48,894 nt of DNA from Streptosporangium minutum (GTDB lineage Bacteria; Actinomycetota; Actinomycetes; Streptosporangiales; Streptosporangiaceae): contig NZ_NGFP01000037.1 of NCBI RefSeq assembly GCF_002149035.1, positions 1-48,894 of the forward strand, given 5' to 3'. The position numbers and the translations under genes are program-made. Of the stretch, positions 9,482-48,894 are shown piece by piece. Every line of letters begins with the position of its first letter. The stretch's first letter is position 1. The notes under the pieces are model-generated. The model worked only from the letters and a program-made list of their open reading frames with translations, was not told the origin of the DNA and did not search any database.

Positions 9482-9491
9482 TCGGAATCCG

Positions 9492-9506
9492 GTCCTCCGC
9501 GAGGAC
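9492..9506 (-). promoter_or_regulatory. Hairpin covering the GT2 ribosome binding site
   Basis: On the minus strand GTCCTC-GCG-GAGGAC forms a perfect 6-bp stem with a 3-base loop. The right arm holds the GGAGGA Shine-Dalgarno of the GT2 gene. It sits in the 50-base gap after the fusion gene. It may make GT2 translation depend on ribosomes leaving the upstream gene. Confidence 0.45.
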
Positions 9507-9531
9507 ACGCGCCGCCGCCTCCCGGCGCGGA

Positions 9532-23977: not shown

Positions 23978-24016
23978 ATGATCGATTCCAAGGGGTTCAG
24001 TGGTCGTAGGCGGTCA
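23978..24016 (+). repeat. Left inverted repeat of the IS982-type element
   Basis: It starts with ATGATCGATTCCAAGGGG and includes the last codons of the transposase gene. It pairs with 26120-26158. Confidence 0.88.
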
Positions 24017-24911
24017 ATGTGCGCATGGTCGGCTGGCCGGTGTGGTCGTTGTGCCAGATGGCGGCAGTGAGCGCGAGGATGCGCTGCAGGACGCGGACGG
24101 CCACGCCGCCGGGGGTGCGGCCGCGGTGTCGTTCGAGGTCGAGCTGTCCTTTAAAGGTCTCGTTGATCGACTCGATGACTTGCCGCAGGGGCTTGAACAG
24201 CTGTGATCCGGGCCGCTCGGTTTCGCCTTTGCGTCTGGGCCGCAGCAGCCGGATGTCCAGTTCGGCCAGCCGCTGTTCGAAGTCGCGGCCGAAGTAGTTC
24301 TTGTCGCCGATCAGCGTCTGGCCGAGGCGCTCTGCGATGAGCTGCGGTTCGACGGCGAGCAGGTCCGGTAGTGTCTCTCGCTCGTCGGCCTTGGCCCCGG
24401 TCAGCGCGAAGGCGATCGGCAGGCCGTGCAGGGTGCACACCAGGTGCAGCCGCAGCCCCCAGAAGTAGCGTGTGTGGCTGGCGCAGTACCCGTACTGGGC
24501 CCATCCGGCCAGGTCGGAGCGTTTGACGGTCTCCCGGGAGCGTCCGCACTCCACCGGCGTGGAGTCCACGACCCACACGTCGTCGCTCCACAGCATGGTG
24601 TCGCGGGCCAACGCCCGGGTGACGCGGCGAATGAGGTCGGCGGCCTTGCGCAGCCGCTTGTTGTAACCGGGCTGCTGAGGCAGGTAGGGGAACAGGTGCC
24701 GCAGGTGGGCGCGGGCGTACCGCAGCCACCTGGCCTCGGAGGTGAAGCCGAGCATCGCCTGCATCATCGCCAATGTCACCAGCTCCGCGTCGCTGAGCTG
24801 CGGTGCGATGCCCACAGCCGGCCGCCACGGGGCGAGCTGAGGTGAATCCTTCAGCAGGTCGTCGGTCTTCACATAGAGTGCGGCGGCGAGGGAGTCCACG
24901 TCTGTCTTCAC
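23997..24911 (-). CDS. IS982-family transposase
   Basis: The product has 304 residues, apparently intact. It shows the IS982-family landmarks: SDAELVTLAMMQAMLGF, LFPYLPQQPGYNKRLR, the first DDE Asp in VVDSTPVECGRS, RSDLAGWAQYGYCASH, the second Asp in LIGDKNYFG, the acidic Glu near IESINETFKGQLDLE, and the C-terminus TLTAYDH. The left inverted repeat overlaps its 3' end. The start is ATG at 24911. It catalyses cut-and-paste transposition of the element. Confidence 0.93.
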   Translation of the reverse strand: MKTDVDSLAAALYVKTDDLLKDSPQLAPWRPAVGIAPQLSDAELVTLAMMQAMLGFTSEARWLRYARAHLRHLFPYLPQQPGYNKRLRKAADLIRRVTRALARDTMLWSDDVWVVDSTPVECGRSRETVKRSDLAGWAQYGYCASHTRYFWGLRLHLVCTLHGLPIAFALTGAKADERETLPDLLAVEPQLIAERLGQTLIGDKNYFGRDFEQRLAELDIRLLRPRRKGETERPGSQLFKPLRQVIESINETFKGQLDLERHRGRTPGGVAVRVLQRILALTAAIWHNDHTGQPTMRTLTAYDH

Positions 24912-26250: not shown

Positions 26251-26316
26251 ACCGGCGGATCTGTAAAAACAATATTCATTGGTGATAGAGTCCGGGATCT
26301 GACGAAGGAGATGATC

Positions 26317-27288
26317 ATGACCTCATCGACGATCGGGTCCCGGCAACCCGCGGAGCTCGCGGCCGAGACGCTGCGTGCACTGGCGCTGGACGAGGACCTT
26401 AAATGGCGGATCGCGGCCGACCCCGCGCTGCTCCCCGTCGCCCGGCGGGTCGCCGGACGCTACATCGGCGGGGAGACCCCGGAGGAGGCGCTCGGGCGGG
26501 TCCGTGAGATCAACGCCGGGGGACAGGCCGCCTCGGTCGAATACATGGGCGAGAGCTGCCGGGACGCCGCGCGGGCCGTGGCGGAGACGGAGGTGTTCGT
26601 CGCCCTCGCCGGGCAGGTCGCCGAGCAGGGGCTGAACTGCTCCATCTCGCTCGACCTCTCCCACATCGGCTCGGTGGTCGACGCCGAGCTGGGCCTGGCC
26701 AACGCCGTCCGCGTCGCCGAGGCGACGGCGGCCGCCGGCCAGGAGATGATGATCTCCATGGAGGGGTCGGACCGGACCGACCTCATCCTGTGGACCCACG
26801 GGCGGCTGTGCGAGCGGTTCGACCATGTCGGCATCACGGTCCAGGCCCGGCTGCACCGGACCGCCGAGGACCTTCCCCGCCTGCTGGAGCGCCCCGGGCG
26901 CATCCGCCTGGTGAAGGGGGCCTTCCTCGAACCCGAGTCCGTCGCCTACCCGCGCGGCGGGGCCGACCTCCGGACGGCCTACCTCCGCTACGCGAGGACC
27001 CTGCTCGACAGCGGCCACGCCTGCTCCATCGCCACCCACGACCAGGACATCCTCGACGAGCTCCACGGCCACCTGGCCGGTACGCGGCGGGAGGTGGAGC
27101 GCTTCGAGTTCGAGACGCTGCTCGGTCTCGGCCCCGAGCAGCTGCGCTCCGCGCAGTCGCGGGGCTACCCGGTCCGCGAGTACGTCGTCTTCGGCACCGA
27201 GTGGTGGCTCTACGTCTGCAACCGGATCGCCGAGGACCCGTCCCGCCTGTTCCAGGCACTCGCCGACGCCGTACCGGCAGGTGCGTGA
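26317..27288 (+). CDS. Proline-dehydrogenase-family flavoprotein
   Basis: The product has 323 residues from the ATG at 26317, chosen over the ATG at 26311 because AAGGAG touches the latter but is 6 bases from the former. The sequence follows the PRODH beta-barrel: LNCSISLDLSHIGS, GQEMMISMEGSDRTDL, VGITVQARLHRTAEDL, RIRLVKGAFLEP, and IATHDQ. The C-terminal helix reads EYVVFGTEWWLYVCNRIAED. In ordinary PRODH it carries two adjacent Arg (YLxRRxxEN) that hold the proline carboxylate; here the first is Asn. It may be a PRODH paralogue with altered substrate. No P5C dehydrogenase gene is adjacent. An AT-rich promoter-like stretch lies at about 26262-26291. Confidence 0.85.
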   Translation: MTSSTIGSRQPAELAAETLRALALDEDLKWRIAADPALLPVARRVAGRYIGGETPEEALGRVREINAGGQAASVEYMGESCRDAARAVAETEVFVALAGQVAEQGLNCSISLDLSHIGSVVDAELGLANAVRVAEATAAAGQEMMISMEGSDRTDLILWTHGRLCERFDHVGITVQARLHRTAEDLPRLLERPGRIRLVKGAFLEPESVAYPRGGADLRTAYLRYARTLLDSGHACSIATHDQDILDELHGHLAGTRREVERFEFETLLGLGPEQLRSAQSRGYPVREYVVFGTEWWLYVCNRIAEDPSRLFQALADAVPAGA

Positions 27289-28240: not shown

Positions 28241-28259
28241 AGGGGCCGCGAGGCCCCTC
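28240..28259. terminator. Second terminator hairpin overlapping the NRPS stop
   Basis: The 8-bp stem GAGGGGCC / GGCCCCTC with a GCGA loop directly abuts the larger hairpin and covers part of the stop codon of NRPS2. Confidence 0.6.
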
Positions 28260-31200
28260 ACCCTCTCCGGCCGGCACCCTCCAGCAGGACGGCGTCGGCC
28301 TCGGCCTGGACGGCGTCCAGGTCGTCGGCGATCTCAGCGCCCGCGACCGCGTCGGGCAGCGCGTCCTCCATGCGCCGCAGCGGCCGGTACCACAGCCCCA
28401 GCGCGCCCCAGAGCATCAGCAGCGCACCGCAGACGACCAGCAGCAGCCCGACGCCGCGCCCCGGCCCCACTCCGACGACGTCACCGACGACCGTGTCCGC
28501 GAGAGGGCCGCCCGGGACGAGCAGCGGGCCGAAGACGTCGTCGGCCAGCGCCGGCGCGGTGAGGAACGCCAGCGGCGTCATCGACACCGCCAGCATCTGG
28601 TTGGTGGCCAGCACCCGGCCCTGCAGTTCCAGGCCGACCTTGAGCTGGATGAGCGCGAGCCAGTGCGCGTTCAGCACGGTGAGGAACACCCACGACATCA
28701 GCCCGCCGAAGGCCGCCAGCACCAGTGAGGGCCGCAACCCGACCAGCAGCACCCCGGCCCCGAACCCGATCACGAAGCCGACCATGCCGATCGCGCGCCG
28801 CTCGGTGCCGCCCCAGAACACCATGATCAGCGAGCCGAGCACCGCACCCACACCCTGCATCGCGGTCACCGTGCCCACGCCCGCGACGTCGCTGAACGAC
28901 AGCACCGCGGGCACCGTCACGGCCAGGCCGAGCATGTTCAGGTAGTTCATCACGACGAAGAACCCGATCATGATCATCAGGGGGCGGCGCCGTACGAGGA
29001 AGCGCCAGCCGCCGATGATGGCCTGCCCGAAGGACTCCTCCAGGCGGTAGAACAGCCGGTCGGGGAAGCGGACCAGCAGCAGCGTGCCGAGCCCGGCGAG
29101 GAACGTGGCGATGTTCACCGCCACCACGCCGTGCAGCCCGACCAGGGTGATGAGCGCGGCGCCGCCCAGCGGGCCGATGAGCATGCCCAGGCCGGTGCCG
29201 AGGTTCGCCAGCGCGTTGGCCTGCATGATGTACGGCTTGGGCACCAGCTGCGCCACCGCCGCCAGGTAGGCGGGCCGGTGGAAGGCCGTCACCAGGGACA
29301 GCAGCCCGGCGATGATCCCGACCTGCCAGATCTCCAGCCGTCCCAGCCACAGCAGGATCACCAGGAGCGCGGTGGCCACCGCGGAGACGCCGTCGCACAC
29401 CAGCATGACCAGCCGCCGGTCCACCCGGTCGGCGACCGCGCCGCCCAGCGGCGCCGCCAGCAGCGACGGCAGCAGGGCGAGCATGGTGACCAGGGCGTAG
29501 TCCAGCACCCGGCCGCTCGCCTGATAGGCCCACACGCCCAGCGCGAAGGAGGTCAGCGCCGCGCCGAGCAGCGACAGGGTCTGCCCGGCCGCGACGGTGT
29601 AGAAGCGGCGCAGGTCCCGGCGGGCGTTCCGGCCCGCGACCTCGACCTCTCCGACCGGTTCGGGCAGATCGCCGTCGTCCCAGCGGTCCAGGTGCTCGGT
29701 GATCAGCCCGGCCAGGGTCTCGGCCTGGTGTTTGAGGAAGTAGTGCCCGGCCCGGGGGATCGTGGCCAGCCCCACCCGGTCGGCGAACGCCCCCCACTCG
29801 CGGTGGCGCTCCTGGTAGAGCTCGGTCGCGCGGTCCCGCTCGCCGATCACGCACACCAGCGGCGCGGAGAGCCTGCGCTCGGAGTGGGCGGGGGAGTCGA
29901 GGTGGCGGCTGAACCAGGCCTGCGCCTGCTCGACGTCATGCCGCAGACCGCGCAGCATGATCTCGGTGTCACCGAAGTCCTCGTCCAGGGCGCCCAGTGT
30001 GCGCAGGAAGTCGCGCTGGGTGCGGTCGGAGGCCCAGCGGTGGGCGGGGAACCTCCGGTTCCACCAGGCCGACAGCCGTCCGGGCAGCCGTGCGTCGGGG
30101 AAGCTGCCGCCGACGAAGACGCCGGCGACCGGGGTCCCGGACGCCTCCAGCCGCAGTGCCAGCTCGGTCGCGGCGGCCGAGCCGACGCAGTGGCCGTACA
30201 GCGCGATCGGGCCGGAGACGCCGGCCAGCTCGGCCACGATCCGGTCGGCCAGCTCCGGCATCGGCAGCATGTCCTCGCCGGGCCGGGCCGGGTCGTGCCC
30301 GGGCAGTTCGACGGCGAGCACCGCCGTGCCGGGGGAGGTGCGGGCCAGCTCGGCGGCGAGCGGCCGGTAGGCGGCGGCCGAACCGCCGCCGTAGGGCAGG
30401 CAGACGAGGGTGCGCGTCGCCGTACGCGGACCGCCGAGACGGTGCAGCAGCCCGGCCGGGGCCTCGGCGCCGCCGTCGAGGTGAGCGGCCAGCTCGCGGA
30501 CCGTGGGCCGGGTGAACAGGTCGATCACCCGCAGCGCCGGGTCGATCTCCCGGACCGCCCGCACCGCGCGGAAGGAGTCGCCGCCCAGCGTGAAGAAGTC
30601 GTCGTCGACGCCGACGTCCTCCACGCCCAGGATGTCCGCCCACACCGCCGCGATCCGCAGCTCGGTCGGTGTGCTCGGCGCCACCCGCTCCGCGGCGGGC
30701 GCCGCCTCCGGAACCGGCAGGCGGGCCCGGTCGACCTTGCCCAGCGGGGTGAGCGGCAGCTCGTCGAGGACGACGAACACGGACGGGACCATGTAGTCGG
30801 GCAACCGCTCGCGCAGCCCCGCCCGGACCGCGGCGAGGTCCGCGGAGGCGGGCGCGACCCAGGCGGCCAGCCGCCGGGAGCGGCCCTCGCCGACCGGCAG
30901 CACCGCGGCCTCGGCGACGCCGGGCTGCTCCTGCAGGGCGGCCTTCACCTCGCCCAGTTCCACCCGGAAGCCCCTGATCTTGACCTGGTCGTCGACCCGG
31001 CCGAGGAACTCCACGAGTCCGGCGGAGTTGAGCCGGACCCGGTCGCCGGTGCGGTAGCAGCGGCCGGTCCCGGTCACCGGGTCGGGGACGAACCGCTCGG
31101 AGGTCAGGTCGGGCCGGTTCAGATAGCCGCGGGCCAGGCTGGGGCTCGCCACCCACAGGTCGCCCGGCACCCCGGCGGGCAGCGGACGGCCCGCGGGGTC

Positions 31201-33591
31201 GACGATGTGGCATTCGACGCCGGGCAGCGGACGGCCCAGCGGGACCGACCCCGACCCCGACGGCGTGCCGGGCACCCGGCCGCCGAGCACCGAGACCGTC
31301 GTCTCCGTCGGTCCGCAGTGGATCTGCACCTCCAGGTCGGGGCGGGCCGCGCGGACGCGTTCGGCCAGCTCCCACGACGTCGCCTCGCCGGCGAGGATCA
31401 GCAGCCGGCGCGGCAGCATCCGGGCCAGGTCGCCGTGGGCGGCCAGCAACTCCAGATGGCTGGGCACCATCTTGATCACATCGACGGGATGCGCCGCGAG
31501 ATAGGCGGTGTACGCCTCCGGGTCGGTGGCGGCGTCCTGGTCCACGAGATGGACCGCGGCGCCCCGGACGAGCGCGCCGTACAGGCAGGTCATCACCAGG
31601 TCGGAGGCGATCGTGGAGACTACACCGTAAGAGGAGTAGGCGTCGGGCACCAGCTCGGCCAGGCCGTGCAGGTAGTGCAGCGCCGACCGGTGCTCGATCG
31701 CGGCGCCCTTGGGCCGCCCGGTGGAGCCCGAGGTGAAGATCACATGCACCAGGTGGCCGGGGGTGACGTCGACCTCCAGGGGCTCGTCGGGCCCGTCAGC
31801 CAGCAGGTCGGGCAGGACCAGCGCGCCGGGGACCCGGCCGGCGTGCTCGCGGTCGGCCAGCACGACGCGCGCCCCGGACGTCTCGATCATGTAGGCGAGG
31901 CGGTCGTCGGGGTAGGCGGGCTCCATCGGCATGTAGGCGCCGCCCGCCCGCAGCACGCCGAGGAGCGCGGGGACCAGCCCGGTGTGCCGGTCCACCAGCA
32001 CACCGACCGGCTCGTCCGGCCGCACCCCGGCCGCGGCCAGGTGGCGGGCCAGCCGGTCGGCGAGCCGGTCCACCTCGCCGTAGGTGAGCGACCCGGAGGC
32101 GTCCACCACGGCGGTCGCCTCCGGCGTCCGCCGTATCCGGTCGCCGATCACCGCGTGCAGCGGCCGGGTCAGGTCCATCCGCAGCCGCGTGCCCGCGACG
32201 ACGGGCCCGGTCACCGGCTCCAGCGGCACGGCCGCCGCGGGCGCGTCCAGGTCGGCGAGCATGCCCTCCAGCAGGTTCAGGTACCAGCGGGTCATGCGCC
32301 GCACGGTCGCCTCGTCGAACAGGTCGGTGCGGTAGGTGAGCTCGCCGTCGTACTCGTCCCCGTCGTTGACGAAGGCGAGGTTGAGGTCGTACTTGGCGGT
32401 GCGCGGCGGGGCCTGCACGTGCTCCGCGGTCAGGCCGGGGAACTCCAGCGGCCGGGGAGGGTCGTCCAGGACGTTGAGCAGCACCTGGAAGATCGGCGTG
32501 GTGGCGAGGCTGCGGTCGGGGTGCAGGTGCTCCACGATCCGCTCGAAGGGCACGTCGCGGTGGGTGAGGGCGTCCAGCACGGCGCCGTTGGTCCGGGCCA
32601 GCAGCTCGCGGCCGGTCGGCTCGCCGGACCTGTCGCCGCGCAGCACGAGCGTGTTGACGAAGCAGCCGAGCATGCGCGTGGTGTCGGGGTGGAGCCGTCC
32701 CGCCTCGGGCACGCCGACCGGCACGTCGTCGGTGCCGGAGATCCGGCCCAGCAGCTCCTGCCAGGCGGCCAGCAGCACCATGAACGGCGTGCAGCCGGTC
32801 TCGGCGGCGACCTCGCGGACCCTGGCGGTCAGCGCGGGCGCCAGCCGTACCGGGACGGTGGCGCCCGACCAGTCGGCGACCGACGGCCGGGCGCGGTCCA
32901 CCGGCAGGTCCAGAACCGGTTCGAGGCCGGCCAGCCGCTCGGTCCACCAGGCGAGGTCGCCCTCCGGCCGCCCGGCCAGCCAGGCCGCGTAGTCGGCGTA
33001 CTGCACCTTCGGCGATGCGGGCGGCTCGGCCGTGCCGAGCCGTGCCGCGTACAGGGCGGCCAGCTCGGCCAGCGCCAGGTTCCGCGACCAGGCGTCGAAG
33101 GCGATGTGGTGCACGGTCAGCGCCAGGACGTGCTCGTCGGCGCCGGTGAGGCGGAGCAGCAGGGCGCGGGCGGGCGGCTCGGAGTCCAGCGCGAACGGGC
33201 GAGCGAGCTCCTCCTGCAGCCGCGCCTCCAGCAGATCGTGGTCGTCGAGGTCCTCGACCATGATCGGGACCCGGTCGGCGTCGACCGGGGTGGCGCCCTC
33301 GTCGGTTACCAGGCTGCGCAGCACCTCGTGCCGGTCCGCGAGGTCGCGTACGGCGCCCAGCAGCGCGGCGGTGTCCAGCGGGCCGCGCAGCCGTACGGCG
33401 GCGGGCACGTTGTAGGCGGCCCGGTCGTCGAGTTGGGCGAGGAACCACAGCCGTGCCTGGGCGGGCGACAGCGGAGCGGGACCGCCGGTCGCCTCCCTGG
33501 CGGGGATCGCCGGGGCGGCCTGGGCGGCGGTGCGGCGCGCGGACGACAGCCGGGCCGCGAGGGCGCTCCGGCGCTCGTCGCTGATGGTCAT
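28258..33591 (-). CDS. NRPS C-A-T-TE module fused to an MFS exporter
   Basis: The product has 1777 residues, starting at ATG 33591 with GAAGGAG upstream. Domains: condensation (about 40-460, active site HHIAFDAWS near 162); adenylation (about 470-910, VIFTSGSTGRPKG near 618-630); carrier (about 950-1020, FFTLGGDSFRA with Ser near 1004); thioesterase (about 1035-1290); and a complete MFS transporter (about 1325-1745). The adenylation pocket read by alignment to GrsA is D-L-T-K-I-A-H-V-S plus Lys, close to Asp-type codes. The thioesterase elbow is YGHCVGS, with Cys near 1135 in place of Ser. It is the last gene of the operon. It should add the final residue, release the peptide and export it. 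Confidence 0.93.
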   Translation of the reverse strand: MTISDERRSALAARLSSARRTAAQAAPAIPAREATGGPAPLSPAQARLWFLAQLDDRAAYNVPAAVRLRGPLDTAALLGAVRDLADRHEVLRSLVTDEGATPVDADRVPIMVEDLDDHDLLEARLQEELARPFALDSEPPARALLLRLTGADEHVLALTVHHIAFDAWSRNLALAELAALYAARLGTAEPPASPKVQYADYAAWLAGRPEGDLAWWTERLAGLEPVLDLPVDRARPSVADWSGATVPVRLAPALTARVREVAAETGCTPFMVLLAAWQELLGRISGTDDVPVGVPEAGRLHPDTTRMLGCFVNTLVLRGDRSGEPTGRELLARTNGAVLDALTHRDVPFERIVEHLHPDRSLATTPIFQVLLNVLDDPPRPLEFPGLTAEHVQAPPRTAKYDLNLAFVNDGDEYDGELTYRTDLFDEATVRRMTRWYLNLLEGMLADLDAPAAAVPLEPVTGPVVAGTRLRMDLTRPLHAVIGDRIRRTPEATAVVDASGSLTYGEVDRLADRLARHLAAAGVRPDEPVGVLVDRHTGLVPALLGVLRAGGAYMPMEPAYPDDRLAYMIETSGARVVLADREHAGRVPGALVLPDLLADGPDEPLEVDVTPGHLVHVIFTSGSTGRPKGAAIEHRSALHYLHGLAELVPDAYSSYGVVSTIASDLVMTCLYGALVRGAAVHLVDQDAATDPEAYTAYLAAHPVDVIKMVPSHLELLAAHGDLARMLPRRLLILAGEATSWELAERVRAARPDLEVQIHCGPTETTVSVLGGRVPGTPSGSGSVPLGRPLPGVECHIVDPAGRPLPAGVPGDLWVASPSLARGYLNRPDLTSERFVPDPVTGTGRCYRTGDRVRLNSAGLVEFLGRVDDQVKIRGFRVELGEVKAALQEQPGVAEAAVLPVGEGRSRRLAAWVAPASADLAAVRAGLRERLPDYMVPSVFVVLDELPLTPLGKVDRARLPVPEAAPAAERVAPSTPTELRIAAVWADILGVEDVGVDDDFFTLGGDSFRAVRAVREIDPALRVIDLFTRPTVRELAAHLDGGAEAPAGLLHRLGGPRTATRTLVCLPYGGGSAAAYRPLAAELARTSPGTAVLAVELPGHDPARPGEDMLPMPELADRIVAELAGVSGPIALYGHCVGSAAATELALRLEASGTPVAGVFVGGSFPDARLPGRLSAWWNRRFPAHRWASDRTQRDFLRTLGALDEDFGDTEIMLRGLRHDVEQAQAWFSRHLDSPAHSERRLSAPLVCVIGERDRATELYQERHREWGAFADRVGLATIPRAGHYFLKHQAETLAGLITEHLDRWDDGDLPEPVGEVEVAGRNARRDLRRFYTVAAGQTLSLLGAALTSFALGVWAYQASGRVLDYALVTMLALLPSLLAAPLGGAVADRVDRRLVMLVCDGVSAVATALLVILLWLGRLEIWQVGIIAGLLSLVTAFHRPAYLAAVAQLVPKPYIMQANALANLGTGLGMLIGPLGGAALITLVGLHGVVAVNIATFLAGLGTLLLVRFPDRLFYRLEESFGQAIIGGWRFLVRRRPLMIMIGFFVVMNYLNMLGLAVTVPAVLSFSDVAGVGTVTAMQGVGAVLGSLIMVFWGGTERRAIGMVGFVIGFGAGVLLVGLRPSLVLAAFGGLMSWVFLTVLNAHWLALIQLKVGLELQGRVLATNQMLAVSMTPLAFLTAPALADDVFGPLLVPGGPLADTVVGDVVGVGPGRGVGLLLVVCGALLMLWGALGLWYRPLRRMEDALPDAVAGAEIADDLDAVQAEADAVLLEGAGRRG

Positions 33592-33659
33592 GAGATCTCC
33601 TTCGCCGGTCTCGCGACCAAGCCGCCGTGTCTGCTGATGGTCTCGACAAGCTCGGTCAT
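33588..33659 (-). CDS. 23-residue ORF coupled to both NRPS genes
   Basis: ATG at 33659 overlaps the stop of NRPS1 (ATGA), and its TGA overlaps the ATG of NRPS2 (ATGA). A GGAGG lies 7 bases before its start. The peptide is short and mildly amphipathic, beginning MTELVETISRHGGLV and ending PAKEIS. No family is recognised; it is far too short for an MbtH protein. It may be a true micropeptide, a translational relay between the two large genes, or the worn remains of a lost gene. Confidence 0.5.
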   Translation of the reverse strand: MTELVETISRHGGLVARPAKEIS

Positions 33660-36600
33660 GAATCCGCCTCCAGGTCGGCCAGCAGCAGGGCCTCGAGCCG
33701 TGCGGCGTAGTCGGCCAGCCTCCGCCGTTCGAACAGCAGGCGCACGGGCACCCGCAGGTCCAGGGCGTCGCTCAGCCGGGCCGTCACGAGGGCGGCGGTC
33801 ACGGAGTGACCGCCGAGTGCGAAGAAGTCGTCGTGCGCGCCGAGGTCGGAGCGGTCCAGCACGGCGGACCACACCTCGGCGACCAGCAGCTCGGCCTCGG
33901 TGCTCGGTGACACCCGCGAGGCCTCACCGCCGGGTTCGGGCAGAGCGGTGCGGTCCACCTTGCCGGAGGCCGTGACGGGCAGGGCATCCAGGAGCACCCA
34001 GCGGCGGGGAACCATGTAGTCGGGGAGCCGGGAGCTCAGACGCCACTCCAGCTCGTCGGTGTCGGTCCCCGGTGGCGCGACGAGGTAGCCGACCAGGTGG
34101 TCGCCTCCATACACGGTCACGGCCGCGTCGGCGACGTTCTCGCGGAGCACGGTCTCGATCTCGCCCAGCTCGATCCGGTGGCCGCGGACCTTCACCTGCT
34201 GATCCCGGCGGCCGAGGAAGTCGAGCGTGCCGTCGGGCCGCCAGCGGGCCAGGTCGCCGGTACGGTAGCGGCGCCCGCCCAGCGGGTCCTCGGTGAAGGC
34301 CGCGGCGGTCAGCTCCGGCCGGCCCCGGTAACCCCTGGCCACGCCGGCGCCGCCGATCCACAGCTCGCCGGGCCTTCCGGCGGGCAGCACGCGACCTGCC
34401 CGGTCGAGCACGTAGGCCCGCTCCCCGGCCAGTGGCGTGCCGATCGGCACCTGGTCGCCGACCGGGGCCGTGATCTGGAGCATGGTGGAGTAGATCGTGG
34501 TCTCGGTGGGGCCGTAGGCGTTCCACAGTTCGGCGACCCGCTCCAGCAGGTCACCGGCGAGGGCGGGGTCGAGCACCTCGCCGATGCTGACCACGCGCAC
34601 GTCCCCGCCGTGCCAGCCGGAGGCGACCAGCATGCGCAGCGTCGTCGGGGTCGCGGTCATCAGCGTGACCCCCGCCTCCTCGATCCGCCGCGCGACGGCC
34701 CGCCCGTCGAGCGCGTCGTCACGGCCCAGCAGCTCCAGCCGCAGGCCGTGGCAGAGGCTCACCCACAGGTCGAAGCCGAACACGTCGAACGAGAACGGCG
34801 TCAGGCCGAGCATCACGTCGTCGGGCCTGATCCCCGGGGCGATCGTCATCGAGGCGACGAACGCGGCGAGGTTGGCGTGGGTGACCTCGACACCCTTGGG
34901 CCTGCCGGTGGAGCCGGAGGTGTAGAGGACGTAGGCGAGGTCGCGGGGTTCCACCCGTGAGGGATCATCGGGATCCGCCCCGTCCCGTACGGCTTCCGCC
35001 GAGGGCAGTCCGGCCAGATCGACGACGGTGTCGCCCAGCTTCCCGGCCACCGCCAGCCCCTCGCCCGCCGCGATGATCATCTTGATGCCGGAGTCGTCGA
35101 CCTGGTGGCGGAGCCGCCGGAGCGGGTGGCCGGGGTCGAGCGGAACGTAGGCGGCACCGGCGAGCAGCACGCCCAGCAGCGCCGCGGGCAGGTACCGGTC
35201 GCGGGGCAGGCACACGCCCACGCAGGCGCCCGCGGCCGTCGGGCCGAGCGCCGCGGCCACCCGTCGCGACCAGCCGGCCAGCTCGCCGTAGGTGAGGACG
35301 CCGTCGGCGTCGACGACCGCCGGGGCGTGCGGGCGCCGTACCGCCTGCTCCAGCACCGCCTCCACCACGGTCCGCGGCACGTCGGCGGGCAGCGGCACGC
35401 CGGTCCCCGCGGCCAGCAGCGCCGCCCGCTCCTCGGCGCCGACCACCTCGAACGCCGACAGCGACCGGTCGGGGTGGGCCAGCGCGTCCACCAGCAGGCG
35501 GACCAGCCGGTCGGTGAGGATCTCGGCCCCGGCCCGGTCCAGATACTCCACGTCGTACTCAACCTGGAGCTCGGGCCCGGCCGCCGTGGCGTTGACGTAA
35601 ACGATCAGCGGCGCCTGGGCGCTGCCCGCGTCCAGCTCGCCGATCAGGTCCACGCCCACGCCTTCGCGCTCCAGGGAGAGGGGGACCTCCGACGGCTGGA
35701 TCGAGAGCGTGACAGGTGTCAGCACCGCGCCGGGCGGGCGCTCGACGCCGCTGGCCTCGGCCCGCTCCCACGCGGACAGCGCGCGGTGGTCCATCACCCG
35801 GGCGGTCACGGCTCCCGCGTGCCGTACGGCCGCGCGCAGCGACAGCCCGTCCTCCAGGCGCAGCCGCACCGGCACCACGTCGACCAGCACGCCGACCACG
35901 GCCTCCAGGCCGGGGTCGGCGCGATCGGCCACGGCGGCGCCGAGGACGACGTCCCGCCGGTCGGTCAGCCCGGCGACCAGCATGCCGAGCACGGTCAGGT
36001 AGACGGCGAACGGGGTGGCGCCGCAGTCGGCCGCGAGTTCGCCGACCCGCGCGGTCGTCGCCGGGTCGATCGGGCGCACCAGGCGCTCGCCGCGCAGGCG
36101 GCTGGGGCCGTCGTCCGGGCGGGGCAGCAGCTCGTACGGCGGGACCGCCCCGGCGAGCTCCTCGGCCCAGAAGGCCCGCAACGCCTCGGCGTCTCTGGCG
36201 GTCGCCTGCTCGCGCAGCGCGACATCGCCGAGCTGGAACGGCGGCTCCGGGACGCCGCCGGAGTGGGTGAGCCCGTCGAGGAGCTCCCGCATGACGATCC
36301 CCAGCGACCAGCCGTCGAACGCGGTGTGGTCGGTGAGGAGCACCAGCTCCGCGCTGTCCGGTTCCGACCACAGCAGGGTGGCCCGCAGCAGCGGCGACAC
36401 CCGGGTGACGTCGAAGTCGTGGGCGACCGCTGCCCGCCGCAGCGCGTCGGCCTCCTCCGCCGAAGCCGGGCGGTGCTCGTCCAGCGGCACCGCCACCGGC
36501 GGCCCGACCTCGACGGTCGTGTTGTCCACGACGACGGCGCGCAGCGCCTCGTGGCGGCGTACGATCGCGTCCAACGCGGCCCGCAGCGGCTCCGCCGAGG

Positions 36601-38509
36601 TGAGGCCGCGCAGCCCGAGCCGGAAGGCGATGGCGGTGGCGCCGGGGTTGTGGCTGACCTCGCGCAGCAGGAGCATGCCGCGCTGGTCCTCGGTCAGCGG
36701 GTAGCGGCTCCGCCCGGTATGGCGGACCAGCGGCGTCACGGCGGCCGGGGCGGCCTCGGCGACGTACGACGCCAGCTCCGCGACCGTGGGCCGGGCCAGG
36801 AACGTCGTCAGCGGGACGTGGACCCCGAGCGCGTGCTCGATCCTGGCGCAGATCTTGGCGGCGGCCAGGGAGTGCCCGCCCAGGTCGAGGAAGTGGTCGT
36901 GGACGCCGACCCGATCGGCGCCGAGCACCTCGGCGGTGATGGCGGTGAGCCGCAGCTCGGTCTCGTCGCGGGGGGCGACGTACTCGTTCCCGGCCGCGTC
37001 CACGGTGGCGGAGGAGGCCGGGGCGGAGGAGTCCCGGGTGGAGGAGAACGTCACCGCGGGAAGCCGGGAGCGGTCGGCCTTCCCCGTGGGGCCCACGGGG
37101 ATGGCGTCGAGGAACACGATCCTGGAGGGGATCATGTAGTCGGGCAGCCAGTCGCGTAGCCAGGACCGCAATCGCCCGTCGTCGAGGCCGGGACCGGCCG
37201 GTTCGACGTAGGCGACCAGCCGCCGGGTGCCCTCCTCGTCGACGGGGGCGAGCACGACGGCGTGGTTCACCAGCGGATGGCGTACCAGCCTGCCCTGCAC
37301 CTCGCCCAGCTCGACGCGGAAGCCCGCGACCTTCACCTGGTCGTCGATCCGCCCCTCGTAGAAGTGGACTCCGCCCTCTCTGCGGACCAGGTCGCCGGTG
37401 CGGTAGTGGCGCACGCCTCCGGCGTCGGTCACGAACCGCTCGGCGGTCAGCTCGGGCCGGTTCAGGTAGCCTCGGCCGACCAGCGGCCCGGCCACCCACA
37501 GCTCGCCGAGCTCGCCGTCGCCGAGCGCCTCGCCGCTGGCGCCGCGCACCGACAGCTCCGACCAGGCGTACGGCGTGCCGATCGGCGGCTCGCCCGTCTG
37601 GTCCCTGGAGATCTCGTGAGCGCAGCAGTGCACGGTGCACTCGGTCGGCCCGTACAGGTTCATCATGCGCCGCACGCCGGGGTTGGCGAAGACGCGGTCG
37701 GCCAGCGCCCGGCTCACCGGCTCGCCGCTGGAGAGCACCGTGCGCACACCCGGGGGCAGCGGCTCCCGCAGCAGCGCGGTCAGCGCCGAGGCCGCCGCGC
37801 TGATCATCGTGACCTCGTCCCTGGCGGGCAGAGTGTGCAGTGCGAGGGGGTTCTCCGCCATGATCACCGTGCCGCCCAGCAGCAGGGGGAGGTAGAGCTG
37901 GGGGACGGACGGATCGAAGCAGACCGAGGTCGAGGCGAGGAACCCGGCCAGCTCCTCGGCGGTGAAGTGGTCGGCGTCCCAGCGCAGCAGCGTCATCACG
38001 TTGCGGTGTTCGATCACGACGCCCTTGGGGCGGCCGGTCGAGCCGGAGGTGTACATGACGTAGGCCAGGTCGGCCGGGTCGCTCGGCAGGTCCGGATCGT
38101 CCTGCGAACGGTTGCCGATCTTGTCCACCAGGATGAGGTCGCGCCCCGGCAGCCGCTCCGCCAGCGCCGCGGAGGTCACCACGTGTGACACTCCGGCGTC
38201 CTCGATGATGAACTCAAGACGGTCGGCCGGATAGGCCGGGTCCAGCGGCACGTAGGCGGCGCCGGTCTTCCAGACGCCCAGCAGCGCCGCGATCAGCGTC
38301 TCGTCGCGGTTCAGGCACACGCCGACGGTCGAGCCTCGCCGTACTCCCCGGGAGACGAGTTCGTGCGCTATCCGGTTGGCCTGAGCGTTGAGGCCGGTGT
38401 AGGTCGTGTGGATCGTTCCCGCGATGATCGCCGTGCGCTCCGGGGTCCGTCGCGCCTGCTGCTCGAAGGCCTTGTGGACAGGTTCGAGCAGGGCGAGTTT
38501 GCCAGCCAC
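33656..38509 (-). CDS. NRPS A-T-C-A-T, initiating enzyme
   Basis: The product has 1617 residues from the GTG at 38509, which has GAGGAG 9 bases upstream; the frame reaches 38596 but without a start signal. Domains: A1 (about 10-500, YVMYTSGSTGRPKG near 150), carrier T1 (DHFLDLGGHSLAAAK, Ser near 545), condensation (about 600-1020, LTDHTAFDGWS near 725; first His is Asp, catalytic His kept), A2 (about 1050-1530, YVLYTSGSTGRPKG near 1191) and carrier T2 (DDFFALGGHSVTAAL, Ser near 1565). There is no N-terminal condensation domain, so it starts the chain. Pocket codes read by eye: A1 D-P-P-S-L-S-L-V-H (no match known to me), A2 D-V-F-T-V-I-A-I-Y (weakly like aromatic codes). No epimerase or MbtH gene is in view. 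Confidence 0.93.
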   Translation of the reverse strand: MAGKLALLEPVHKAFEQQARRTPERTAIIAGTIHTTYTGLNAQANRIAHELVSRGVRRGSTVGVCLNRDETLIAALLGVWKTGAAYVPLDPAYPADRLEFIIEDAGVSHVVTSAALAERLPGRDLILVDKIGNRSQDDPDLPSDPADLAYVMYTSGSTGRPKGVVIEHRNVMTLLRWDADHFTAEELAGFLASTSVCFDPSVPQLYLPLLLGGTVIMAENPLALHTLPARDEVTMISAAASALTALLREPLPPGVRTVLSSGEPVSRALADRVFANPGVRRMMNLYGPTECTVHCCAHEISRDQTGEPPIGTPYAWSELSVRGASGEALGDGELGELWVAGPLVGRGYLNRPELTAERFVTDAGGVRHYRTGDLVRREGGVHFYEGRIDDQVKVAGFRVELGEVQGRLVRHPLVNHAVVLAPVDEEGTRRLVAYVEPAGPGLDDGRLRSWLRDWLPDYMIPSRIVFLDAIPVGPTGKADRSRLPAVTFSSTRDSSAPASSATVDAAGNEYVAPRDETELRLTAITAEVLGADRVGVHDHFLDLGGHSLAAAKICARIEHALGVHVPLTTFLARPTVAELASYVAEAAPAAVTPLVRHTGRSRYPLTEDQRGMLLLREVSHNPGATAIAFRLGLRGLTSAEPLRAALDAIVRRHEALRAVVVDNTTVEVGPPVAVPLDEHRPASAEEADALRRAAVAHDFDVTRVSPLLRATLLWSEPDSAELVLLTDHTAFDGWSLGIVMRELLDGLTHSGGVPEPPFQLGDVALREQATARDAEALRAFWAEELAGAVPPYELLPRPDDGPSRLRGERLVRPIDPATTARVGELAADCGATPFAVYLTVLGMLVAGLTDRRDVVLGAAVADRADPGLEAVVGVLVDVVPVRLRLEDGLSLRAAVRHAGAVTARVMDHRALSAWERAEASGVERPPGAVLTPVTLSIQPSEVPLSLEREGVGVDLIGELDAGSAQAPLIVYVNATAAGPELQVEYDVEYLDRAGAEILTDRLVRLLVDALAHPDRSLSAFEVVGAEERAALLAAGTGVPLPADVPRTVVEAVLEQAVRRPHAPAVVDADGVLTYGELAGWSRRVAAALGPTAAGACVGVCLPRDRYLPAALLGVLLAGAAYVPLDPGHPLRRLRHQVDDSGIKMIIAAGEGLAVAGKLGDTVVDLAGLPSAEAVRDGADPDDPSRVEPRDLAYVLYTSGSTGRPKGVEVTHANLAAFVASMTIAPGIRPDDVMLGLTPFSFDVFGFDLWVSLCHGLRLELLGRDDALDGRAVARRIEEAGVTLMTATPTTLRMLVASGWHGGDVRVVSIGEVLDPALAGDLLERVAELWNAYGPTETTIYSTMLQITAPVGDQVPIGTPLAGERAYVLDRAGRVLPAGRPGELWIGGAGVARGYRGRPELTAAAFTEDPLGGRRYRTGDLARWRPDGTLDFLGRRDQQVKVRGHRIELGEIETVLRENVADAAVTVYGGDHLVGYLVAPPGTDTDELEWRLSSRLPDYMVPRRWVLLDALPVTASGKVDRTALPEPGGEASRVSPSTEAELLVAEVWSAVLDRSDLGAHDDFFALGGHSVTAALVTARLSDALDLRVPVRLLFERRRLADYAARLEALLLADLEADS

Positions 38510-38628
38510 CTTTGATCTCCTCTTGGTGTACGGAAAAGGGGGCACAGGCCGTACGACGGCAAGGGTGACAAAGGGGGTTCTAGCAAGGTAGGGCAAAGAT
38601 CTTTTTGTTACCTTAACGGTATTGATTG

Positions 38629-38800: not shown

Positions 38801-41800
38801 CTACCTCAGGTACGGCCCCGCCGTGCCGACCTTGCCGGGCGCCGGGTTGCCCGGCAGTGACAGGACGTAGGCCCGCATGTTGCCCTTGCCGCCGCCGGCG
38901 ATCGTGAGCGTCCCGCCGGTCACGGCCTTGCTGTCACCGGTGACCGCGTCGACGTAGGTGCCGTTCGGGACGCCGGTGAAGGTCGCGCCCCCGGAGACCG
39001 AGACCAGCACGAAGCTGTCCACCGACCCCTGGGTGAAGCGGCGCTTGTAGGCCATCTGGCCGGTGACGCCCTCGGTCGAGTACTGCCCCTTCTGCAGTGC
39101 CGGGATGGCCCGGCGGATCTGGTTGAGCCGCTGCACGTGCTTGACCAGCGGCTTGTCCAGCGTCTGCGCCACCGCGCCGGTGGCCGAGGAGACGACGCCG
39201 AAACCGGAGGCGGTGACGCTGCCCGCGAGGTGGTCGCCGTAGTAGGCGCGGCCGGTGGTCGCCAGCGGGCAGGTGGGCCCGCAGTCGATCCGCTGACCCT
39301 TCTGGAACTCGATCTCCGAGCCGTAGTAGAGCGTCGGGATGCCGCGGAAGGTCCACATCAGCGACATGTTCTCCGCCCACGCGTCGGTCCCGCCGGTGTA
39401 GCGCTCGTTGGACTTGTTGGGGCCGAAGTCGTGGGAGTCGACGTAGACGGTGTTGTAGGTGGCGTCGTTGTAGCTGTCGTCGGAGTCCTTGCCGTTGTTG
39501 AAGGCGTTGGGCGCGTCGCCGAAGTTCATGTGCATGCGCATGTCGATGACGTTCATGCCGGAGAACTTCGAGTGGTCGGGCGCGTGGTAGGCGTTGCCGC
39601 GCAGGAAGGCGTTGTCGGTGGTGGGCTGGTTGCCGGTGCCCATCAGGTTCTCGTAGTCGAACTGCTCGACGACCGCCCTGGCGTCGTCGGGGCTGAACTC
39701 CCTGCGCTCCTTCCAGGTGTAGAACTGCGCGGAGTGGTTGACCGAGCCGCGGTTCCACTTGTCGTTGACGAACGCCCCGACCTCACCGAAGACGTAGAAG
39801 TCCTTGCCCTTGTCCCCGTGCGTGGCCACGGCGTGCTGCTGCAGGGCCGGCAGGAAGCGGCGGTTCCACATCAGCCGCGAGACGTGCACGGCGGTGTCGA
39901 CGCGGAAGCCGTCGACCCCCATGTCGATGTACTTGTTGTAGGCGTCGATCAGGTAGTCCTGCACCGCCTTGTTCTCGGTGTTGAGGTCGGCCAGGTCGTC
40001 GTGGAGCCAGCAGCTCTTGGAGTCCGAGCCCTCCCAGTTGCCGATCCAGCACCGGTGGTAGTACTCGGCGGGGAACATGCCCGAGGTGGGGCTGGGCCAC
40101 TGGCAGTTGTGGATGGTGAAGCCCTCGGGGCTCTTCCACTGGGTGGGCGTGCCGTAGTCCCCGCAGGTGTTGCCCGCCGGGGCCGCGGTGGACCACAGGT
40201 CGCCGTTGTACGGCCTGCCCTTGGCCATCTCGTTCTGTCTGGCCGTCATCTCCGGGTCGTCGCCCTGGTGCTCCTCCATCGGGTCGTACTCCTTGCCCGG
40301 GACCTTCTCGCTGTAGAGCCACTTCCACTGCTCGTCACGCGCGCCCCACACCGGGGGGACGTACAGCCCCTTGGCGCCCCAGCGGGAGCTGTGGTTGTAG
40401 ACCACGTCCTGGAAGATCTTGATGCCCTTGGCGTGCGCCTTGTCGATCAGGTCCTGGTAGGTCGCGCCGGGGGTCTCCAGCCGCGTGTCGACGCGGTGGA
40501 AGTCCCAGCCGTGGTAGCCGTGGAAGTCGTAGTCGGAGCGGTTGAGCACGACCGGGGTGATCCACAGCGCGGAGAAGCCGAGGCCCTTGATGTAGTCGAG
40601 CTTGTCGATCAGGCCCTTGAAGTCGCCGCGGAACATCGGGTCGTTGTTCCTGGCGTTGCCCGAGACGGTGTGCTGGCCGCCGCCCCGGTTGTTGGAGGTG
40701 TCGCCGTCGTTGAAGCGGGCGGTCATCACGAAGTAGATGGAGTCCTCGCGCGGGTCGCCGCCCAGTGGCGACCCCTTGGCCGGTTCCGGTGGGGCGTCGC
40801 CGGTCTTCGCCGCCGCCTCGGTGCTCGCCCCGGACCGGTTGCCCGCCGCGTCGCGGGCCTTGACCGTGTAGGCGTAGGTGGTCCGCGCCTCCAGGCGGGC
40901 GTCGGTGTAGACGGTGTTGGTGCCCGTCGTGAGCGTCACCGGGGCCTCGGAGCCCTTCCTGCGGGTGATCTCGTAACCGGTCACCGCGATGTCGTCGCCG
41001 GCCTCGTTCCAGCTCAGTTTGACGGTGGTGCCCTCCGCCGTGGCGGTCAGCCCGGTGGGGACGGAGGGGGCGGTGGTGTCCGGAGGTTCGGGGGTGCACG
41101 GCTCGGTGGCGTTGGCGCGCACCACCCCGTCCTTGACGGTGGTCAGTCCGGTGCCGATGGCGTAGTCGGCGCCGCCGTTGTTGTCCCAGGTGCCGGAGCC
41201 GTTGTTGAAGGCGGCCTTGAGTCCGGTGGCGGTGCCGAGGTCGACGGTCTTCTTGGCCCAGCCGGCGCAGGCGGTCTCGTCCATGGCGACGCCGGGGACG
41301 GGGGTCCAGGTCCCGCCGGTGGGCTGGTAGTGGATGTTGGCGGCGTTCCAGCCCTTGGTCTTCTTGTGGAAGTAGACGACGGCCTGCTTGCCGGGCGGCT
41401 CGGTCGGCCCCCCACCTGGGCAGGGGTTACCGGCCGTGACCTGGCCGCCGGAGACCTTCACGGTCCCGGTGCCGATGGCGTAGTCGCGGCCGCCGTTGTT
41501 GTCCCAGGTGCCGGAGCCGTTGTTGAAGGCGGCCTTGAGTCCGGTGGCGGTGCCGAGGTCGACGGTCTTCTTCTTCCAGCCGGCGCAGGCGGTCTCGTCC
41601 ATGGCGACGCCGGGGACGGGGGTCCAGCTGCCGCCGGTGGGCTGGTAGTGGATGTTGGCGCCGGTCCAGGCGGTGGAGTAGTAGACGGTGGCGTCACCGG
41701 TCGGCGGGTCGGTCGGCCTGACGCCACCGGTGTGGATGGCGACCGCGCCCTTGGCGGGGACGGTCACCGAGGCGGTGCCGTTCGAGCCGACCGTCACCGG

Positions 41801-43117
41801 GCCGCCGCCCAGGTCGTCGGCGTAGGTCCCGGCGGGCAGACCGGTGCTGAAGGTCCGGGTGACGGAGCCGCCCTCGTTGTTGATCGCGACCCAGCCCTTG
41901 CCGCCGCGGCTGAAGGCGATCACGTTGTTGCCGTTGTCGTACCAGTTGCCGACCGAGGTGCCCGCGACGGCCCGGTTGAAGCCGACCATCCCGCTCATCC
42001 GGCGGTGGAAGCAGGTCCACCGCCCGTTGCCGCAGTCGGCGTCGGTGACGAAGCCGCCGTTGGCCGAAGGGGGGCCGCCCTCCGCGTTGCTCCAGGTGAA
42101 GCCGGAGTAGACGCGCGGCGTGCCGTACGGCCACGCCAGCATGAAGACGTTGGCCAGCTTGTAGGCGTCGCCGTACTTGTAGTTGAGGGTGGAGCCGTTG
42201 CGCTCGGTGTCGTGGTTGTCGACGAAGACCACGGCCTTGTCGCTGGGCACCGACAGGCCCCAGCTCTGGCCGAAGCTCTGCAGCCACTTGATCTGGCCGG
42301 TGAACTGCTCCTTCATCTTGCGGCCGTACACGAACTCGTGGACGTCGCCGATCCCGGTGTAGTGGCTCGGCTTGACCGCCTCGTTCGGGCCCTCGATGAC
42401 CTCCTGGTGGATGTACGGCGAGCCCCTCAGCCTGGACTTGATCGCCGCCAGGTCGCCGGGGGCGATGTGCTTGGCGGCGTCGACGCGGAAGCCGTCCACG
42501 CCGAGGTCGGTCAGCTTGTTGAGGTAGCCGGCGATCTGGTCGCGGACGTACTCGGAGCCGGTGTTGAGGTCGGACAGGCCGACCAACTCGCAGTTCTGCA
42601 CCCGCCGGCCGTCGTTGACGTAGTCGCCGTCGTTGATCGCGCAGGCGGGGGAGTGGAAGTCCGAGGAGGAGTAGAGCCCGGGGTAGTCGTACTTACCGAA
42701 GTCGTAGCCGCCGTAGCTTCTGCTGCCCTGGCCGGTCATGTGGTTGACGACCACGTCGGCGTGGACCTTGACGCCCGCGTCGTGGCAGGCCCTGACCATG
42801 TTCCTGAACGCGTTCTCGTCGCCGAACTTGCTGTTGAGGGTGTAGCGGGCGGGCTGGTAGACGTCCCACCAGACCGAGCCGCCCTTGCTCATCGAGTCGC
42901 TGGGCGGGGAGACCTGGACCGCGCCGTACCCGGCGGGGCCGAGCACGTCGGTGCACTCGCGCGCGACCGAGTTCCAGTTCCAGTTCCACAGCTTGACGAT
43001 CGGGCCGGGCGCGGGCGGTGCCGCCTGGGCGGGGGCGCTGAGCACGGTGGGCACCACCACGACGGCGCTTGCCAGGGCGCTTAACGCTGTGGTGACAATG
43101 ACTTTGTAGGATCTCAT
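38801..43117 (-). CDS. Secreted two-catalytic-domain amylase with starch-binding modules
   Basis: The product has 1438 residues. A signal peptide (1-33, ending PAQAAPP) precedes a first alpha-amylase domain (about 36-385: DVVVNHMTG, GFRVDAAKH near 209, HQEVIEG, FVDNHDTER) and a beta-sheet C domain (to about 465). Two nearly identical CBM25/26-like starch-binding modules follow (about 474-570 and 577-675), then a fibronectin type III domain (about 681-775). A second GH13 domain (about 786-1430) starts EDSIYFVMTARFNDGD and has GFRVDTAVHV, YVFGEVGAF and VDSHDFGPN. All six catalytic carboxylates are present. It should cut raw starch outside the cell, the second domain perhaps acting on branches or shorter dextrins. 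It lies 79 bases after the pullulanase gene in the same direction. Confidence 0.93.
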   Translation of the reverse strand: MRSYKVIVTTALSALASAVVVVPTVLSAPAQAAPPAPGPIVKLWNWNWNSVARECTDVLGPAGYGAVQVSPPSDSMSKGGSVWWDVYQPARYTLNSKFGDENAFRNMVRACHDAGVKVHADVVVNHMTGQGSRSYGGYDFGKYDYPGLYSSSDFHSPACAINDGDYVNDGRRVQNCELVGLSDLNTGSEYVRDQIAGYLNKLTDLGVDGFRVDAAKHIAPGDLAAIKSRLRGSPYIHQEVIEGPNEAVKPSHYTGIGDVHEFVYGRKMKEQFTGQIKWLQSFGQSWGLSVPSDKAVVFVDNHDTERNGSTLNYKYGDAYKLANVFMLAWPYGTPRVYSGFTWSNAEGGPPSANGGFVTDADCGNGRWTCFHRRMSGMVGFNRAVAGTSVGNWYDNGNNVIAFSRGGKGWVAINNEGGSVTRTFSTGLPAGTYADDLGGGPVTVGSNGTASVTVPAKGAVAIHTGGVRPTDPPTGDATVYYSTAWTGANIHYQPTGGSWTPVPGVAMDETACAGWKKKTVDLGTATGLKAAFNNGSGTWDNNGGRDYAIGTGTVKVSGGQVTAGNPCPGGGPTEPPGKQAVVYFHKKTKGWNAANIHYQPTGGTWTPVPGVAMDETACAGWAKKTVDLGTATGLKAAFNNGSGTWDNNGGADYAIGTGLTTVKDGVVRANATEPCTPEPPDTTAPSVPTGLTATAEGTTVKLSWNEAGDDIAVTGYEITRRKGSEAPVTLTTGTNTVYTDARLEARTTYAYTVKARDAAGNRSGASTEAAAKTGDAPPEPAKGSPLGGDPREDSIYFVMTARFNDGDTSNNRGGGQHTVSGNARNNDPMFRGDFKGLIDKLDYIKGLGFSALWITPVVLNRSDYDFHGYHGWDFHRVDTRLETPGATYQDLIDKAHAKGIKIFQDVVYNHSSRWGAKGLYVPPVWGARDEQWKWLYSEKVPGKEYDPMEEHQGDDPEMTARQNEMAKGRPYNGDLWSTAAPAGNTCGDYGTPTQWKSPEGFTIHNCQWPSPTSGMFPAEYYHRCWIGNWEGSDSKSCWLHDDLADLNTENKAVQDYLIDAYNKYIDMGVDGFRVDTAVHVSRLMWNRRFLPALQQHAVATHGDKGKDFYVFGEVGAFVNDKWNRGSVNHSAQFYTWKERREFSPDDARAVVEQFDYENLMGTGNQPTTDNAFLRGNAYHAPDHSKFSGMNVIDMRMHMNFGDAPNAFNNGKDSDDSYNDATYNTVYVDSHDFGPNKSNERYTGGTDAWAENMSLMWTFRGIPTLYYGSEIEFQKGQRIDCGPTCPLATTGRAYYGDHLAGSVTASGFGVVSSATGAVAQTLDKPLVKHVQRLNQIRRAIPALQKGQYSTEGVTGQMAYKRRFTQGSVDSFVLVSVSGGATFTGVPNGTYVDAVTGDSKAVTGGTLTIAGGGKGNMRAYVLSLPGNPAPGKVGTAGPYLR
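41151..41342 (-). repeat. Starch-binding module repeat, copy B
   Basis: This 192-base segment is almost identical to 41469-41660, in the same orientation inside the amylase gene. It encodes the core of the second CBM (NIHYQPTGGTWTPVPGVA ... NNGSGTWDNNGG). Confidence 0.9.
41469..41660 (-). repeat. Starch-binding module repeat, copy A
   Basis: Partner of 41151-41342. It differs at only a few positions, such as the KKK versus AKK codons, which points to a recent duplication or gene conversion. Confidence 0.9.
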
Positions 43118-43154
43118 GCGGGGGGCCTCCAGGGTTGTGGACGGGTTCCCTTGA

Positions 43155-43184
43155 TCGGGCCGGGTGCTGCAACACCCGGCCCGA
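43155..43184 (-). promoter_or_regulatory. Intercistronic hairpin between pullulanase and amylase genes
   Basis: A perfect 12-bp stem, TCGGGCCGGGTG / CACCCGGCCCGA, has the loop CTGCAA (+ strand). It lies just after the pullulanase stop. It could terminate or attenuate readthrough, or protect the upstream message. The segment TGCTGCAA also matches part of the mal operator, so a MalR role is possible but speculative. Confidence 0.55.
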
Positions 43185-43196
43185 GCTCTTTTCCGG

Positions 43197-48894
<5,698 letters not shown>

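Follow-up and report, generated by a model that had tools for sequence, protein, structure and literature searches.

What does it mean for the last module of a peptide assembly line to read straight into a membrane transporter? This question is raised by a nonribosomal peptide synthetase (NRPS) gene of Streptosporangium minutum, found in a window of 48,894 nucleotides (the whole stretch of DNA analyzed here; contig NZ_NGFP01000037.1 of assembly GCF_002149035.1). The gene codes for condensation (C), adenylation (A), carrier (T or PCP, for peptidyl carrier protein), and thioesterase (TE) domains followed by a transporter of the major facilitator superfamily (MFS). The initial annotation had described all this as a single frame without stops, and our analysis agrees, as the open reading frame (ORF) spans exactly the interval given there (28258-33591, minus strand), has no internal stops, and begins with an ATG abutted on its 5' side by GAAGGAGATCTC, a Shine-Dalgarno (SD)-like sequence. 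All the Pfam domain calls are above the curated cutoffs (for the A domain, AMP-binding at residues 485-824 and AMP-binding_C at 881-952), and the core motifs are undamaged (HHIAFDA, TSGSTGRPKG, GGDS, GHCVG, GERD, GHYF, and the MFS motif A, GAVADRVDRR). Our overall reading, to which we give a probability of roughly 65%, is a two-gene NRPS whose product would be released at the membrane by an ObiF-type cysteine TE and exported by the synthetase's own MFS pump.

The fusion is genuine, and members of several bacterial phyla have it. Full-length, stop-free orthologs with 86 to 93% identity are present in eight other genomes, and within the genus the close ortholog is intact in 8 of 16 genomes (own genome included), while 13 of the 16 gave one or more TE-MFS matches at 1e-100. 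In the S. minutum genome alone, PCP-TE-MFS was matched over its full length seven times, always within a single open frame. Among 296 genomes sampled from the class, with three candidates scored per genome, any match at 1e-40 was found in 34 and, from the rows that we read, a full-length match in 14. Among the best 80 of 416 loci by similarity, retrieved with probes taken from Cys-type sequences, PCP-TE-MFS lies in one open frame in all 80 (a lone stop symbol in the range of L057 falls beyond the end of the gene), and the family search proposed in the initial annotation thus gave a conserved order, with the MFS after the TE. According to our tally of record titles, these loci belong to Actinomycetota (63), Chloroflexota (8), Bacillota (4), Corallococcus in the Myxococcota (4), and a metagenome-assembled genome of Spirochaetes (1). 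A search with TE-MFS gave 462 protein matches, and many of the 120 listed (from Streptosporangium, Nonomuraea, Kitasatospora, and Dactylosporangium) are named "non-ribosomal peptide synthetase/MFS transporter" by NCBI, which bears out the remark that such fusions occur in genome annotations. These proteins have the same domain order and length, but what they carry is an annotation name alone, and we saw nothing attached to it about function, the class of the TE, or the terminal code. The fusion is, in short, a widespread and already named architecture and not a one-genome curiosity. In phage records, 21 matches to TE-MFS were found, none covering 80% of it.

The window does come from a draft of 548 contigs, and some linkers between TE and MFS contain start codons (ATG in 14 of 53 aligned sequences, namely, the window sequence and 52 from the 80 loci, and a start of any kind with an SD in 4), as would suit an artifact of assembly or gene calling or the production of two proteins through internal initiation. 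We regard this explanation as hardly credible, because the orthologs are intact in independent assemblies, some of them of one or few contigs, and because of the seven fusions in the genome and the relatives in five phyla. We also rejected internal initiation as a source of two proteins, as there is no in-frame ATG, GTG, or TTG in the stretch of the window's linker that was scanned, and ATG combined with an SD appears in 0 of the 53 linkers. Seven loci where the match stopped at the TE (around residue 1299) were inspected for another type of transporter, a possibility that we discarded, as six have MFS-like hydrophobic tails (three judged by eye and three by helix count alone). In the seventh, L033 (7477-11808, minus strand), the gene stops after the TE and has no transporter; this unfused C-A-T-TE protein, with GHCAG and the Thr-like code DMYNFGLIH, is possibly a Thr-derived beta-lactone synthetase. 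Two other loci extend beyond the MFS. L031 (6376-13113, minus strand) has about 300 additional aa that by eye look like an aminoglycoside-phosphotransferase-type kinase fold (no family search was made), and L120 has about 400 extra residues after PCP-TE-MFS, with no membrane helices in the extra part.

Judging from its residues, the TE differs from the usual serine-type release domain. Alignment to ObiF1 predicts a Cys1135-Asp1253-His1283 triad with the Asp in "position II," and the solved structure nearest to the PCP-TE unit by sequence and fold is that of the beta-lactone-forming ObiF1, with the beta-lactam-forming SulM second by profile and fold. The likeness is to a rare class of release domains noted for the closure of strained, reactive rings. 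The nucleophile is Cys in 79 of the 80 loci, and the 120 listed proteins contain GHCVG (108), GHSVG (10), or neither pattern (2). Across the 53 sequences, position I (aligned to G1173 of ObiF1) is Gly in 49 and position II is Asp in all. The obafluorin NRPS ObiF (C-A-PCP-TE-MLP) has the same triad, Gly at position I, and the LPGHDPA motif, but it ends in an MbtH-like domain (MLP) where the fusion has the MFS; Pfam gave no such C-terminal domain here. ObiF loads beta-OH-p-nitro-homophenylalanine, according to the portion of PMC6668435 consulted. The sulfazecin NRPS SulM also has a Cys TE with Asp at position II, but the Gln-Cys-Asn motif of the SulM subtype is not in the fusion TE (GHCVG instead), and excerpts of PMC11298585 describe diaminopropionate (Dap) as its last residue, with sulfonation by SulN, which differs from the fusion.

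The A domain offers a guess at the last residue. Its nine code positions, assigned by eye relative to GrsA (an assignment that also gave a Thr-like code and Gly-like codes), read DLTKIAHVS, which is closest to codes for Asp or beta-hydroxy-Asp. The same code was the commonest among the 71 of 80 loci where it was readable (32, followed by DFTKIAHMI in 13 and DLTKVAHVS in 6, others being rarer), and by our count Lys278 is kept in 67 and His322 in 66 of the 71. In the other nine, the last module has no A domain (six loci) or the contig is cut (three loci). The tistrellabactin code DLTKVGHVGK, predicted for Asp and loading erythro-OH-Asp according to the part of PMC10391617 consulted, is identical to that of the window at 6 of the first 9 positions, and DATKIGEVGK (Asn/Asp in a table of that paper) is identical at 5 of 9. 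A gene for a pyridoxal phosphate (PLP)-type enzyme lies directly downstream of the fusion in 17 of the 80 loci, with none seen in the window; its best NCBIfam model was threo-3-hydroxy-L-aspartate ammonia-lyase in the 6 of 6 tested, always below the cutoff and with threonine ammonia-lyases scoring nearly the same. From the code resemblance and the PLP genes in relatives, Asp or beta-hydroxy-Asp would be our best guess. Another kind of gene follows the fusion in L085 (4790-6124) and L108 (12453-13766), homologous in the two loci, both of which have the terminal code DLIKITHCA; in L085 it resembles KamA-family radical SAM enzymes, below the cutoff, and no such gene was seen in the window.

We also considered a beta-lactam formed via Dap and rejected it: the SulM motif is absent, and no SbnA- or SbnB-like genes were seen in the window. 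A search aimed at the SulM Dap code gave remote plasmid relatives only. In four Amycolatopsis loci (L059, L062, L064, and L082), the fusion is without an A domain in its last module, and next to it lie an SbnA-family gene, a carbamoyltransferase-like gene, and an SbnB-like gene, in this order downstream (a single copy of each was scored, with SbnA above and the SbnB-like gene below the cutoff), so that diaminopropionate or ureidoalanine chemistry is possible there.

The transporter appears to be complete. The Pfam families MFS_1 (residues 1334-1668, score of 75.1 versus a cutoff of 33.4) and MFS_3 (residues 1337-1626, 54.4 versus 27) were recognized, while the H+ antiporter family TIGR00900 (2A0121) scored 163.3, below its curated cutoff of 319.6, and phmmer gave no PDB relatives of the MFS part at an E value of 0.01. 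Mef(A) and Mef(B) were among the tblastn relatives; these exporters (MFS_3, DHA3) are of the same superfamily but stand-alone proteins, with 24 to 27% identity among the matches listed. An AlphaFold2 model of PCP-TE-MFS (predicted local distance difference test score, 86.3; predicted template modeling score, 0.83) has twelve membrane helices (6+6), and the count of Lys and Arg residues (26 on the TE side versus 4 opposite) would place the MFS N terminus on the cytosolic side with the TE. With motif A intact as well, the complete set of helices described in the initial annotation holds. Motif A residues (D388 and R392/R393, A2 alignment numbering) and polar residues of the membrane helices (Q337, N549, H643, Q649, and K651) are 98 to 100% conserved in the 53 sequences, and dN/dS for the MFS was 0.19 to 0.48 in nine ortholog comparisons (estimated crudely by the Nei-Gojobori method from GC-rich codons), values that indicate purifying selection. 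In the same nine comparisons, identity was highest for the MFS among the four long domains and lowest for the linker among all seven parts (tied in one). As the linker is poorly conserved and of variable length (21 to 82 aa in the family), no rigid coupling between TE and MFS is implied.

TE and MFS seem to have been inherited together. Their trees agree (r of 0.905; 500 permutations gave at most 0.158), each of the 23 TE splits with support is also present in the MFS tree, 27 of 32 supported MFS splits recur in the TE tree, and 32 of 50 splits are shared overall. The A-domain tree follows that of the MFS as well (r of 0.915 and 25 of 31 supported splits, for 46 of the 53 sequences). The family can hence be described as C-A-T-TE-MFS in one frame, with conserved order and co-inherited TE and MFS.

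Sequence, fold, or comparison supports the fusion, its intact domains, the TE class and triad, the terminal code, the topology, the co-inheritance, and the selection on the MFS, and the following mechanism is proposed on this basis. A two-gene, three-module NRPS (A-T-C-A-T, then C-A-T-TE-MFS) would assemble a small peptide with an Asp-like last residue, and the chain would move from the last carrier domain onto the cysteine of the ObiF1/SulM-type TE before being released. The rare triad suggests attack by an internal nucleophile, not plain hydrolysis; the triad by itself does not prove ring closure, as type II TEs have Asp at position II too, and we hold such closure only as a tentative possibility. 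Some 30 residues would separate the TE from the cytosolic face of the 12-helix pump in the same chain, and the MFS would both anchor the assembly line at the membrane and export the product, the latter being quite likely. If the TE, by its resemblance to the strained-ring class, makes a reactive product, a tight coupling of synthesis and export would have a reason. The initial annotation had placed the assembly line at the membrane, handing the product straight to its exporter: the first part gains from the single chain, the intact MFS, its N terminus on the TE side, and the cereulide precedent described below, while a channeling role is compatible with our findings and a direct hand-over from TE to MFS without free diffusion appears doubtful.

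The strongest competitor, which we rate at somewhat less than even odds, is that the MFS exports and the fusion just sets a 1:1 stoichiometry and a shared location, with a product that diffuses and a TE that may hydrolyze. Unfused MFS relatives lie directly behind NRPS genes with Ser TEs in Nostoc UHCC 0870 (gap of 1 bp) and Trichormus (gap of 14 bp), and a more distant one overlaps an NRPS gene by 4 bp in Streptomyces NBC_01136; such adjacent genes suggest how the fusion arose, and those of Nostoc and Trichormus fit mere co-expression, as do the variable linker and the TE relatives without MFS. The concordant TE splits and the spread over five phyla, on the other hand, argue that the fusion has been kept, for whatever reason. 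By analogy with the demonstrated scaffolding by a transporter in the cereulide system, the MFS might have lost transport and merely hold the synthetase at the membrane, but its conserved motif A and polar residues and its low dN/dS make this improbable. We give slightly less credit to a fused type II proofreading TE that would clear misloaded carriers, release occurring by other means. The type II TEs BorB and RifR are the next closest group, ahead of SulM in the single-sequence search, and share Asp at position II, whereas the location in cis after the last carrier, the nearly invariant Cys, the lack of a second release domain by Pfam in the two genes, and the score of ObiF1, a true release TE, far above that of every type II TE speak for the terminal release proposed here.

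Several observations weigh against our reading of the fusion as an ObiF-type release-and-export enzyme. SulM ranks only sixth in the single-sequence search, below type II TEs, although ObiF1 is first. With the A domain as the query, ObiF1 ranks 33rd among the 60 PDB sequences listed (97 matched); the ObiF likeness is limited to the PCP-TE unit, with no special relation of the A domains in sequence. Ser replaces Cys in some fusions (10 of 120 proteins and 1 of 80 loci, plus L121 and L124), PCP-TE matches without MFS were read in 8 of the 296 class genomes, and the six TE-only loci that we read have Cys in two and Ser in four. The terminal code is Gly-like in 4 of 71 loci, and no hydroxylase was found among the window genes scored, which leaves the window with no visible origin for a beta-hydroxyl. 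Same-strand genes of other kinds adjoin the fusion in 4 of the 17 nearest loci, and one further locus of the 17, on a cut contig, has no neighbor in the run. Last, we found no biochemically characterized member of the NRPS/MFS fusion family.

Adenylating enzymes joined to a membrane-spanning part in one chain are known from Aas-LplT fusions and the epsilon-polylysine synthetase Pls, but these have other chemistry and no TE-MFS cassette. A search of open-license PMC papers (titles and abstract openings) found no description of an NRPS-MFS fusion. In the cereulide system, the NRPS CesAB is held at the membrane by the ABC transporter CesCD, and this tethering matters, according to excerpts of PMC7527721; these are, unlike the fusion, separate proteins, with a transporter of the ABC type and contact via C domains. 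Irp8, a separate MFS protein, exports the NRPS siderophore piscibactin in the portion of PMC9408133 consulted. The architecture is already named in databases, but its link with a cysteine TE and an Asp-like terminal code across phyla has, as far as we could check, not been described previously.

The features of the fusion and its partner are listed in Table 1. The upstream A-T-C-A-T gene, separated from the fusion by 64 bases, completes the assembly line, which thus has three modules; its likely start is a GTG at 38509 with AGGAG upstream, although the longest ORF begins at 38596. Genes in the window and the loci were called with a codon-usage script of our own. In eight loci from Herpetosiphon and Paenibacillaceae, the fusion comes third, after a short NRPS gene and one that is glycosyltransferase-like (one tested), with a first A-domain code that we take to be Tyr-like in the three read. 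No tailoring enzyme or exporter of the NRPS operon was found among the window neighbors scored. Upstream (38801-48893, minus strand) there are two giant starch-degrading genes (1438 and about 1900 aa), one for a protein with amylase domains and CBM25 and the other of pullulanase type, and downstream, on the opposite strand, a glycolipid-binding gene and a proline-dehydrogenase-like gene (26311-27288, plus strand; NF045947, below the cutoff). A DDE transposase gene (23997-24911, minus strand) lies between the NRPS operon and a sugar cluster of sialic acid type in this actinomycete (7251-11589, minus strand), with polysialyltransferase-like, GT2, and NeuB/cytidylyltransferase-like genes.

Table 1. 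Coordinates of the NRPS/MFS fusion gene, its predicted domains and residues, and the partner gene in the window.
Feature	Position	Strand	Basis
NRPS terminal module fused to MFS transporter (C-A-T-TE-MFS), 1777 aa	28258..33591	-	ORF, Pfam, motifs
C domain, residues 39-453, HHIAFDA at 161	32233..33477	-	Pfam PF00668 (3.9e-80); motif
A domain, residues 485-952, code DLTKIAHVS (Asp/beta-OH-Asp-like)	30736..32139	-	Pfam PF00501/PF13193; code comparison
Carrier (T) domain, residues 979-1038, GGDS	30478..30657	-	Pfam PF00550 (PP-binding); motif
ObiF/SulM-type TE, residues 1058-1298	29698..30420	-	Pfam Thioesterase (from 1060), sequence, fold, profile
Predicted catalytic Cys1135 (GHCVG), aligns with ObiF1 Cys1146	30187..30189	-	Alignment, motif
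Predicted catalytic Asp1253 (GERD, position II), aligns with ObiF1 Asp1254	29833..29835	-	Alignment, motif
Predicted catalytic His1283 (GHYF), aligns with ObiF1 His1284	29743..29745	-	Alignment, motif
TE-MFS linker, residues 1299-1327	29611..29697	-	Ortholog identity; start-codon scan
MFS transporter domain, residues 1328-1737, 12 membrane helices, motif A intact	28381..29610	-	Pfam, AlphaFold2 model, alignment
Conserved C-terminal tail RRMEDALPDAVAGAEIADDLD, residues 1738-1777	28261..28380	-	Conservation among relatives
Partner NRPS gene A-T-C-A-T, codes DPPSLSLVH and DVFTVIAIY	33656..38509	-	Pfam, code reading

If our reading is right, these proteins would provide a single-polypeptide system for asking whether the synthesis and export of a natural product are coupled, which is hard to do with separate parts, as well as a family recognizable from its sequence (a DLTKIAHVS-like code, mostly an ObiF1/SulM-class cysteine TE, and an MFS) for finding unusual small peptides. 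In a bolder version, which we consider rather unlikely, they would be release-and-export megaenzymes across phyla in which the TE closes a strained ring, most specifically a beta-lactone on a terminal beta-hydroxy-Asp, and passes the electrophile straight to the MFS. The electrophile would then never be free in the cytosol, a built-in self-protection, and the family would be a major source, unseen so far, of beta-lactone-like peptides. With seven fusions in one genome, S. minutum would be a place to seek peptides with possibly strained-ring ends.
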